A stretch of 50,874 nt of DNA from Flavobacteriales bacterium BRH_c54 (GTDB lineage: Bacteria > Bacteroidota > Bacteroidia > Flavobacteriales_E > Vicingaceae): contig LADZ01000026.1 of NCBI GenBank assembly GCA_000961845.1, positions 1-50,874 on the forward strand, read 5' to 3'. The notes below the pieces were generated by a model. It ran no database searches, was not told the origin of the DNA, and was given only the letters and a program-made list of their open reading frames with translations. Below, in pieces: positions 11,018 to 15,663 of the stretch. The position numbers and the translations under genes are program-made. Numbering within the stretch: the first letter of the stretch is position 1; each line of letters begins with the position of its first letter.

Positions 11018-11515
11018 ATGAATAGTAGTCTGAGATTAAAACTTAAAGAAGCCGAAAAGCATAAAAAAGACAATCAGCTATTGGTTAAAAAGCTTAAAAA
11101 AAGCAAACCAAAAAACTTAAATGATAATACACACGAAGCTCATGATGCTGCTTTTGATAAAATAGACTGCCTGCAGTGTGCCAATTGTTGTAAAACCACT
11201 AGTCCTATTTTTTATGATAGAGACATTGACAGATTGGCAAAACACCTAAAAATAAAGCCTTCAGCTTTTGTAGCTCAATATTTACATTTAGATGAAGTAG
11301 GTGATTATGTGCTCAATACTGCTCCTTGCCCATTTTTAGATTATGAAAATTATTGCATGGTTTACGAAAGCCGACCAACAGCTTGCAGAGAATATCCACA
11401 TACTAACCGAAAAAGATTTTATCAGATTTTAGATTTATCGCTAAAAAACACAGAAATATGTCCTGCTGTTGCAACTGTTTTTGAAGAATTAAGAAAAATA
11501 TATCCAGTATCTTGA
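11018..11515 (+). CDS. YkgJ-family cysteine-cluster protein
   Basis: A 165-residue cytoplasmic protein. After a Lys-rich helical N-terminus (1-35) it has the Fe/Zn-chelating CxxCxxCC motif (DCLQCANCCKTT, about 50-61) and later CPFLDYENYCMVYESRPTAC, where the two spaced cysteines and the ESRPTACREYP signature define the family (former UPF0153). The cysteines probably bind a metal; no reaction is established for most members. It starts 18 bases after the protease stop but has its own promoter. Confidence 0.88.
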   Translation: MNSSLRLKLKEAEKHKKDNQLLVKKLKKSKPKNLNDNTHEAHDAAFDKIDCLQCANCCKTTSPIFYDRDIDRLAKHLKIKPSAFVAQYLHLDEVGDYVLNTAPCPFLDYENYCMVYESRPTACREYPHTNRKRFYQILDLSLKNTEICPAVATVFEELRKIYPVS

Positions 11516-11555
11516 TTACTTAAAAAAATTACTTTACTCTCATTTTTTTATTTAG

Positions 11556-11563
11556 TACATTTG
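11556..11563 (+). promoter_or_regulatory. Promoter -7 element of the thiamine operon
   Basis: TACATTTG matches TAnnTTTG exactly; no TTG is seen at the ideal -33 position. Transcription would start about 11568-11570, exactly at the first base of the TPP riboswitch. Confidence 0.6.
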
Positions 11564-11568
11564 TGAAA

Positions 11569-11702
11569 CTTTAGGGGTGTCCACCAATTGGCAGACTGAG
11601 ATTATACCCTCAATACCTGATGCAGATAACGCTGCCGTAGGAAAAAGAAACTTCTCTCTTTGTCGAGAATATTCCTAAAGCTATATTGTTAAAAAATTTA
11701 GG
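11569..11702 (+). ncRNA. TPP riboswitch (thi-box) with its expression platform
   Basis: The aptamer (11569 to about 11647) shows the conserved pieces in order: GGGGTG, CTGAGA, ACCCTC, ACCTGATGCAGATAA and GCCGTAGGAAA. It binds thiamine pyrophosphate and lowers expression of the thi genes. Downstream lie a hairpin (TTCTC/GAGAA around 11652-11669), CCTAAAG (11674-11680) and TTTAGG (11697-11702) one base before the thiS ATG at 11704. CCTAAA can pair either with CTTTAGG at 11569-11575 or with TTTAGG at 11697-11702. P1 of the bound aptamer uses CTTT (11569-11572), so ligand binding should push CCTAAA onto the thiS start. There is no T run, so control is more likely at translation than at termination. 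Confidence 0.93.
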
Positions 11703-11703
11703 A

Positions 11704-13804
<2,101 letters not shown>

Positions 13805-13806
13805 TT

Positions 13807-14310
13807 ATGATTATTGTAATCTCTAACCCAACACAAATAAAAGGCGAATATTCAATCATTCATCAATTATTTGAGCAAGGGTTAGAAAGTTTTCATATTT
13901 ATAAACCTGATTTTTCTAGTGACCAAATAGCAGAATTTAAACAACAAATTTCTGCTAAATATCACAGCAGAATTATGCTTCATGAGGAGTATTTTAAATT
14001 TCATTCATTAAAAGAACTAGAAAATTGTAAAGAAAAATACGATTATGCTTTTCTTTCTCCTGTTTTCGATAGTATCTCTAAAGCAGGATATAAAAGTCAG
14101 TTAAATTTAAAAGAAGTAAGCAATGTATTGAAAAACAAAAAAGATAAAATCATTGCACTAGGAGGAATTGATGAAGACAAAATAAATACAATTAAAGCAA
14201 TAGGTTTTTCCGGAATTGCTTTGCTCGGAGCTATATGGAAAAGTGACAATCCTGTTAAAAAATTTAAACAAATAAAAGAAAAATGGTTGAAGAGCGAATT
14301 GGTGCATTAA
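13807..14310 (+). CDS. Short ThiE/TenI-like protein with a shrunken barrel
   Basis: A 167-residue member of the thiamine phosphate synthase / TenI group. It shows MIIVISNPTQ, the EQGLESFHIYKPDF block, KYDYAFLSPVFDSISKAGYKS and the C-terminal IIALGGIDEDKI, as in the first ThiE-like gene of other Bacteroidota thiamine operons. Those relatives have about 200 residues; here about 35 residues between MLHEEY and HSLKEL seem to be missing, which would remove one or two beta/alpha units of the TIM barrel. The reading frame is intact and overlaps thiD by 28 bases. Full-length ThiE is encoded two genes later, so this one may be regulatory, TenI-like or decaying. Confidence 0.75.
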   Translation: MIIVISNPTQIKGEYSIIHQLFEQGLESFHIYKPDFSSDQIAEFKQQISAKYHSRIMLHEEYFKFHSLKELENCKEKYDYAFLSPVFDSISKAGYKSQLNLKEVSNVLKNKKDKIIALGGIDEDKINTIKAIGFSGIALLGAIWKSDNPVKKFKQIKEKWLKSELVH

Positions 14311-15026
14311 GTATTGCCGGCTTTGACCCAAGCGGAGGGGCTGGTATTCTTGCAGATATAAAAACATTTGAAGTAAATAAGGTTTGTGGAATGGGAGCAC
14401 TGAGTGCCATCACTTTTCAAAATGATATTGAATTTGATGATGTAAAATGGCTTGAAACAACGGAAATTTTAAACCAAGTTTCAACACTTCAAAGAAGATT
14501 TCAATGGAATAGTGTTAAAATAGGATTAATAAAAGATTTGGAGACATTAGAAGGTGTCGTCAATTCCATTTCTACTTCACAAATTATTTGGGATCCAATA
14601 ATAAAAGCGAGTTCTGGATTTGAGTTTCATAAAACAATAAACAACGAACAATTAATTGAGATACTAAAAAAAATATATCTAATTACACCAAATATCGATG
14701 AAATAAAGTTTTTAACGGGAATAAAAAATCCCATAGAAGCTGCAAAAACATTATCGAAATATTGTAATGTATTACTAAAAGGAGGTCACAATAAAGAAGA
14801 ACCGGGAGTAGATTATTTATTTATGCAAGATAAAATAGAAAAAATAGTTCCAACAGAGAAAAACAATATCTACCCAAAACACGGTTCAGGATGTGTATTA
14901 TCTGCTGCAATTGTAGCTAACCTTGCCAAAGAAAATGATTTAACAACTGCTTGTCATCATGCAAAAAAATATGTAGAACAATTTTTAGCGAGTAACCCAT
15001 ATTTATTAGGAGTTCATCATGTTTAG
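14283..15026 (+). CDS. thiD: Hydroxymethylpyrimidine / phosphomethylpyrimidine kinase ThiD
   Basis: A 247-residue ribokinase-fold enzyme that phosphorylates HMP and HMP-phosphate to HMP-PP. The N-terminal IAGFDPSGGAGILADIKTF and CGMGALSAITFQN are family signatures, and the C-terminal KHGSGCVLSAAI holds the anion hole and catalytic region (GSGC). The start overlaps the preceding gene by 28 bases and the end overlaps thiE by 8, so translation is coupled through this part of the operon. Confidence 0.93.
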   Translation: MVEERIGALSIAGFDPSGGAGILADIKTFEVNKVCGMGALSAITFQNDIEFDDVKWLETTEILNQVSTLQRRFQWNSVKIGLIKDLETLEGVVNSISTSQIIWDPIIKASSGFEFHKTINNEQLIEILKKIYLITPNIDEIKFLTGIKNPIEAAKTLSKYCNVLLKGGHNKEEPGVDYLFMQDKIEKIVPTEKNNIYPKHGSGCVLSAAIVANLAKENDLTTACHHAKKYVEQFLASNPYLLGVHHV

Positions 15027-15663
15027 TAAATTACAATACATATCACAAGGAGCTACAGCTGAAGAACAAATAGAGAATATTCAACAGGTACTTGATGCAG
15101 GTTGTAAATGGATACAGTTACGTTTTAAAAATATAGATGAAAAAGAACTACTTGAAGTAGCTCAACAGGTAAAAAATAATTGCTCAAAACATCAAGCTAC
15201 ATTTATAATAAATGATTCCGTTAAAGTAGCTAAAAATGTTGATGCAGATGGGGTTCACCTTGGTCTAAAAGATATGTCTGTAGCAGAAGCAAAAACTATT
15301 TTAGGAGAAGATAAAATTATAGGAGGAACAGCAAATAGTATAGAAGATGTTTTAAAAAGAGTAGATGAAAAATGCAGTTATATTGGTTTAGGGCCATTTC
15401 ATTTTACTACAACAAAAGAAATTTTAAGTCCAATTTTAGGCTTAAAAGGTTATGAAACTATAATGCATGAACTTACAAAAAGAGAAATTTATATCCCAAT
15501 TTATGCTATTGGAGGAATACAAATGGATGATGTGAAAGGCGTTATGAACACAGGTGTTTATGGTGTTGCTGTTTCAGGTTCAATTACACATTATCCTCAA
15601 AAAAAAGAATGGATACAAAACTTTAATTTATTATTCGATGGACAAATTAATTATAGCAAATAA
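15019..15663 (+). CDS. thiE: Thiamine phosphate synthase ThiE
   Basis: A 214-residue TIM-barrel enzyme that joins HMP-PP and thiazole phosphate to thiamine phosphate. Key blocks are [53 protein letters not shown] and YAIGGI, covering the diphosphate and thiazole-phosphate sites. This is the full-length ThiE of the operon, in contrast to the shortened paralogue at 13807. Its 3' end overlaps the thiG start by 26 bases. Confidence 0.94.

Follow-up and report, generated by a model that had tools for sequence, protein, structure and literature searches.

Bacteroidetes mRNAs are reported to lack Shine-Dalgarno sequences, with initiation in F. johnsoniae tuned by local structure (PMC6847099), and because Bacteroidota translate without this element, how their riboswitches stop translation was open. 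The question is raised in concrete form by a TPP riboswitch of Flavobacteriales bacterium BRH_c54, in a stretch of 50,874 nucleotides (contig LADZ01000026.1; hereafter the window). The aptamer scores above the curated cut-off for RF00059, and thiS, thiC, and further thi genes lie downstream, supporting membership of the family. We propose that this is very probably a riboswitch with OFF logic, controlling translation of thiS by masking of the start codon. The features concerned are as follows.

11556..11563, plus strand: TACATTTG, a Bacteroidota -7 box (TAnnTTTG), from sequence.
11563..11660, plus strand: TPP aptamer (RF00059), Rfam match of 62.0 bits against a cut-off of 54.3.
11569-11572 with 11644-11647, plus strand: P1 of the aptamer, from the pair listing.
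11573-11576 with 11607-11610, plus strand: P2 of the aptamer (5' strand first), from the pair listing.
11569..11578, plus strand: segment A, CUUUAGGGGU, the 5' strand of P1/P2, a putative anti-sequestor that pairs with B and nearly copies C (centroid fold, A:B p = 0.003).
11652..11669, plus strand: small spacer hairpin UUCUC/GAGAA between the aptamer and B, in minimum-energy folds.
11670..11680, plus strand: segment B, UAUUCCUAAAG, the putative switching strand, pairing with A or C (folds, shuffles, relatives).
11697..11706, plus strand: segment C, UUUAGGAAUG, the thiS start site with the whole AUG (folds, relatives).
11704..11907, plus strand: thiS, Pfam PF02597, E 1.2e-12 over 11704-11904.
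To about 17536, plus strand: operon thiS-thiC-(TMP/TenI-like)-thiD-thiE-thiG-thiH, from Pfam matches.

The six genes after thiS match the Pfam families ThiC, TMP-TENI, Phos_pyr_kin, TMP-TENI, ThiG, and Radical_SAM with BATS, and the names thiD, thiE, and thiH were assigned from family and gene order. Two genes of the TMP-TENI family stand in this one operon, at 13807-14310 and 15019-15663, the former being short and covering only the C-terminal part of the profile (103-180 of 180). The window genome also holds a second TPP aptamer (L002, at G000:C8:16269-16388 on the minus strand; 39.7 bits, below the Rfam cut-off), which precedes a gene encoding CarboxypepD_reg and TonB plug domains. Linkers of its relatives (e.g., L074-L078, L085, L100) show, by eye, a hairpin loop of GCCCC or ACCCC that is complementary to the GGGG of the aptamer, possibly a loop-to-aptamer switch of another kind. 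Upstream of the thiS aptamer, the -7 box is informative about the transcript: the Bacteroidota consensus is given as TAnnTTTG (PMC7366714, PMC9723704) and is placed at -12 to -5 (PMC9723704), so from the box at 11556-11563 transcription would begin at about 11568. Of the 106 thiS-headed TPP loci assembled below, 63 have a TAnnTTYG box within the 30 nt that precede A, with a gap between box and A that is most often 4-8 nt and is 4 nt in the window.

Two helices compete for segment B. In the centroid fold, A at 11569-11578 pairs with 11671-11680 (CUUUAGGGGU/AUUCCUAAAG; 10 pairs including two G.U), and in the minimum-energy fold 11670-11679 pairs with C at 11697-11706 (UAUUCCUAAA/UUUAGGAAUG; 10 pairs including one U.G), a helix that takes in the complete thiS AUG at 11704-11706. 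Both use the same B and are mutually exclusive, and A:B is incompatible with P1 and P2 as well. The aptamer's 5' strand is therefore, judged as complementarity, a candidate anti-P1 partner of the linker, and B:C, in the folding model, a stem that spans the start codon and shares its strand with A:B. The two pairings lie in one register: with A written as CUUUAGGGGUG and C as AUUUAGGAAUG, the AGGGGUG of the aptamer lies over the AGGAAUG of the start, and B fits both because A is a near-copy of C, with GG in A where C has AA and U's in B that pair with either.

The original prediction had pointed to CTTTAGG at 11569-11575, CCTAAAG at 11674-11680, and TTTAGG at 11697-11702, all of which are in place ahead of the thiS ATG at 11704-11706, and its central claim, one linker segment with two exclusive partners at the aptamer's 5' edge and the thiS start, holds at the level of sequence. 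Its helices exist but are longer than described, at 10 pairs each; the copied element extends beyond TTTAGG, to CTTTAGGGGTG against ATTTAGGAATG; and at the aptamer edge, CUUU does belong to P1 as claimed, with the correction that AGGG belongs to P2. The observation itself is thus confirmed, and the reading built on it is supported, with the amendments given here and below.

Against dinucleotide shuffles of the linker, the window gave p = 0.003 for A:B and p = 0.04 for B:C, and a second run on the identical copy in a genus mate gave 0.003 and 0.056. Taken alone, B:C is only borderline, and relatives carry the case for it. The exact pattern ATTCCTAAA-N8-38-TTTAGGAATG matched 5 of 395 genomes of the class: the window genome, its genus mate G004, G066 and G330 (both of family f22), and G128. 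The first four matches sit at thiS-type TPP sites and that in G128, by eye, at another kind of place; the control pattern, read backwards, matched 3 of 395 genomes (G054, G157, G294).

Folding of the window gave ensemble energies of -33.8 kcal/mol with A:B enforced, -26.3 with the aptamer enforced, and -34.2 unconstrained, from which RNA without ligand is expected to favor A:B over the aptamer. TPP binding energy is of a scale that could plausibly pay the 7.5 kcal/mol between them. Given that the unconstrained minimum-energy fold has B:C without the aptamer and the centroid has A:B, switching may need cotranscriptional timing. Opening positions -8 to +9 of the window's thiS start is predicted to cost 8.0 kcal/mol when B is free and 2.0 kcal/mol when B is taken, and with the aptamer enforced the probability of being unpaired is 0 to 0.25 over 11697-11706. 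The claim that the start is open without TPP stands only in part: in the folding model it is unmasked from B, but a weak hairpin remains over the AUG when A:B is enforced (probabilities of being unpaired 0.28, 0.28, and 0.41), and blocking B raises the mean for the AUG from 0.06 to only 0.21.

Relatives were drawn from three sources. In 100 genomes (that of the window and 99 relatives), RF00059 matched at E <= 0.001 in 90 and above the Rfam cut-off in 61, and all 105 RF00059 places listed were taken as loci. A ThiC search returned 80 loci, of which the 35 that appeared to be Bacteroidota or near kin were scanned; 34 of these carry a TPP aptamer, and thiS is the first gene in all 34. These first two sources held 60 thiS-headed loci, which became 56 on removal of three with starts more than 130 nt away and of L048, an exact duplicate of the window site that was retained in a 57-locus set for dinucleotide shuffles. 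The ThiS profile matched 109 of the 395 class genomes; 91 ThiS-search loci were taken in (30 + 60 + G330 = L186), leaving out 10 first-set genomes and 8 places, and 81 remained once 10 more from first-set genomes were set aside. The TPP pattern or the start rule removed 31 of these 81, although a TPP aptamer is present in some of them and was overlooked, and with L186 restored by hand and L248 removed for its short linker, 50 were kept. The final set comprises 56 + 50 = 106 thiS-headed TPP loci from Bacteroidota (72 genomes and 34 named loci), with p-values from mononucleotide shuffles for the 106 and from dinucleotide shuffles for the 57-locus set. Since the loci come in part from related species, which are not independent, no combined p-value can be read as a probability; the site in G004 is identical to that of the window and does not count as independent evidence. 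Within the genus, ThiS matched in the window genome (G000) and G004, not in G002 and G003, a distribution suggesting that the thi operon has been lost or transferred in a patchy manner. Flavo-1 RNA (RF01705) was matched on the minus strand beside thiC (L134, L128, L137), after the gene in Tenacibaculum and before it in Galbibacter.

The pairing of A with B is widely kept. It reached p <= 0.05 in 57 of the 106 loci and p <= 0.01 in 41 by mononucleotide shuffles; by the combination of dinucleotide shuffles and duplex energy, applied to the first 57 loci (L048 included), the corresponding counts were 34 and 21. When linkers were swapped among loci, A with its own linker had a mean score of 19.5, and the largest of 2000 permutations reached 18.2. 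Where A varies, B follows, as with GACAAAGG and CCTTTGT at L021 and L263, and with AAACAGGGG and CCCCTGTTT at L005, whose first gene is not thiS. Among other TPP loci, A:B was found in 21 of 64 (22 of 65 when L048 is counted).

For B:C, the sharpest evidence came from a register test in which B was chosen solely by its fit to A and then scored against the start. Strong pairing fell at register 0, that of the window, in 23 of the 57 loci with A:B; every other register from -20 to +20 had 0 or 1, except +6 with 5, the far-upstream registers being scorable in fewer loci (13 at -20). Over all 106 loci, strong pairing off register 0 was limited to 6 at +6, 2 at +12, and 0-1 elsewhere. An earlier test that allowed free best sites for both helices was weak, with overlapping sites in 29 of 57 loci against 22.3 expected and B:C at p <= 0.05 in only 12 of 57; fixing B by A was the sharper approach. 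Within the 23 three-segment loci, mean pairwise identity was 0.92 for B and 0.90 for C, three of the eight C bases being the fixed ATG, against 0.36 and 0.35 in the 10-nt flanks on the two sides of B and, for C, 0.43 in the upstream flank and 0.60 in the downstream flank, which is coding. The 23 loci span 8 families together with Chryseobacterium, Myroides, Flavobacterium, Sphingobacterium, Dyadobacter, Xanthocytophaga, and one unclassified Bacteroidetes MAG (families and the six named genera may overlap), and the same arrangement, as read from sequence, was thereby found in a range of other Bacteroidota. Opening the start cost at least 3 kcal/mol more with B free in 23 of 23 three-segment loci and in 11 of 83 others, a contrast that is partly built in, the 23 having been selected for B:C; the probability that the AUG is unpaired rose by at least 0.4 in only 9 of the 23, while the energy-cost measure agrees in all 23. 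GGA directly 5' of ATG occurs in 21 of the 23 and 1 of the 83, again partly by selection. Two-sided changes were few (five cells in three columns): G-C to A-U at -2 in L235 and L109, G-C to A-U at +4, inside codon 2, in L222, and U-A to C-G in L114 and L225 at -5, where just 11 of the 23 loci have a pair. Register and conservation consequently carry more of the case than covariation does.

The complementarity that the original prediction expected in relatives was thus recovered in part, for A:B in 57 loci and, in the same register, for B:C in 23 of these, but strong register-0 B:C is absent from 83 of the 106 loci. Among the 83 are L009, L022, and L067, which lie before thiS in other genera of the same family as the window and have A:B. 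At L133, L038, and L216, B pairs instead with codons 1-4 of thiS (e.g., GTTGACTTCTA/TGGAAGTCAAT; swap p 0.021, 0.010, and 0.041), so the principle may extend beyond one register. In a swap test with free register, over the 97 loci with enough room, 0 of 5000 permutations reached the observed mean; among the 74 of these without strong register-0 pairing 18 of 5000 did, and among the 33 of those 74 that have A:B, 3 of 5000, which is suggestive of start masking in other registers among the remaining loci.

Two kinds of switch were considered for the window and rejected. A sequestered Shine-Dalgarno sequence does not fit the start, where AGGA abuts the ATG and nothing SD-like stands at 5-10 nt (TTAAAAAATTTAGGAATG, by eye). 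A transcription-terminating TPP riboswitch would need a terminator, and a search for intrinsic terminators found no site in 11500-11950, a weak test (loops of 3-8 only; 0.2 expected in shuffles), with no T-run after the B:C hairpin.

Other accounts of the same segments have to be weighed against start masking. It is doubtful, though far from fanciful, that the anti-P1 helix A:B is the true conserved device and B:C a lineage-specific addition, with most Bacteroidota using another step after loss of A:B. The excess of A:B (57 of 106 thiS loci and 21 of 64 other TPP loci) over register-0 B:C (only 23 of the 57) speaks for this, as do the three loci in which B turns to codons 1-4; on the other side, B:C, where present, is kept as islands of sequence in 8 families and 6 named genera, which may overlap, and the swap result for the 33 remaining A:B loci hints that B masks the start in other registers. 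Control mainly at the RNA level, in which the leader, untranslated or paired in its TPP state, leads to Rho-dependent termination or decay and start masking is secondary, seems to us unlikely. It has precedent in E. coli thiC, where most TPP-bound complexes at the pause site are reported to undergo Rho-dependent termination beside translational control (PMC5234074), and in Bacteroides thetaiotaomicron, where mRNA of the thiS operon falls with thiamine (PMC5613172), so that an effect on RNA, direct or by way of decay or Rho, is possible. Against it stand the lack of a terminator-like site (a weak test) and of a T-run, and the centering of conservation and paired changes on the AUG register, which a device acting purely on RNA would not need.

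A third account would dispense with the switch and treat the pairings as a by-product of conserved A-rich or AGG-like sequence near the aptamer and start. The borderline B:C of the window (p = 0.04-0.056) and the three genomes matched by the backwards pattern speak for it. The sharp register peak, the swap test, the conservation islands, and some paired changes speak against it, as does the concentration of GGA before ATG in the three-segment loci, which selection partly built in, and we consider the by-product reading highly improbable and strongly disfavored.

Under start-codon masking, the favored reading, the switch would work as follows. In the absence of TPP, B, the linker strand just transcribed, would pair with A at the 5' end of the transcript, breaking P1 and P2 and unmasking the thiS start. 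With TPP, P1 and P2 would hold A, and the freed B would form its 10-pair helix with C and so enclose the AUG; this ligand-driven exchange would be expected to block initiation and to repress the whole operon. We think it rather probable that this is an SD-free platform of Bacteroidota in which the AGGGGUG of the aptamer doubles as an in-register decoy of the thiS start AGGAAUG, with some lineages shifting the strand to codons 1-4. One linker strand would then read "aptamer folded" directly as "start codon closed". The thiS site offers a concrete, testable answer to how a riboswitch may act in the absence of a Shine-Dalgarno sequence, with the AUG itself masked. Such a platform can be recognized and scored in genome sequences by how three short segments relate to one another, its prediction can be tested in Flavobacterium or Chryseobacterium, and it would also explain the sequence constraint around the thiS start.

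The nearest relatives of this arrangement within the phylum are the TPP riboswitches of Bacteroides, which likewise precede a thiS-headed operon that is repressed by thiamine, and for which Costliow and Degnan (2017) describe the level of control in Bacteroidetes as uncertain (PMC5613172). More broadly, Barrick and Breaker (2007) report translational control as most common outside Firmicutes, and the sequestor/antisequestor platforms of their survey share with the window an OFF logic by ligand-driven loss of the antisequestor; structures that hide the RBS were not explicitly modeled there, translation being assigned by default (PMC2258182). In the literature searched we found no description of the present platform in Bacteroidota. 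A 2019 preprint by Costliow, Degnan, and Vanderpool reportedly concerns, by its title, whether Bacteroides TPP riboswitches act on transcription or translation. That preprint (10.1101/867226), known by title, may describe part of the platform.

E. coli thiM resembles the window in that its linker can pair with either the aptamer or the translation start region, and TPP masks initiation. It differs in masking the SD (TTGCTTCT/AGGAGCAA) where the window would mask the AUG, and the best linker match of the 12-mer that corresponds to A has only 4 pairs. By sequence, the best match between aptamer and linker of thiM is GCGTGAAGG/TCTTCACGT, which may not be a real pairing, given that, in probing cited in PMC3280964, RNA free of TPP has a mispaired P1 but forms P2 and P3. 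The closer parallel is E. coli thiC, where experiments by Chauvier et al. (2017) showed that the ON state, formed in the absence of TPP, contains a long-range anti-P1 stem which is incompatible both with P1 and with an OFF stem hiding the RBS and AUG (PMC5234074); the complementarities in the window predict the same exclusions. The original prediction was right that the putative masked site is not a Shine-Dalgarno sequence, but masking of an AUG is not in itself unusual, being known from this system. The thiC 5' strand CTTGTCGGA can form 9 pairs, one of them G.U, with TCTGACAAG, located at -37 relative to the ATG; among the eight best linker:start matches, those that overlap the TCTGACAAG segment have only 4-5 pairs, so thiC shows no single strand that fits the two partners in a shared register. 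For thiC, pausing and Rho action are demonstrated (PMC5234074), and an RBS is hidden besides the AUG, whereas the window has no SD at working distance and the AUG would be the core of the masked site. The logic of the proposed window switch thus matches one already known, the anti-P1/sequestor switch of E. coli thiC. What appears to be new in its Bacteroidota form is that no SD is present, that the AUG forms the core of the predicted masked site, and that a single strand fits aptamer and start in one register.
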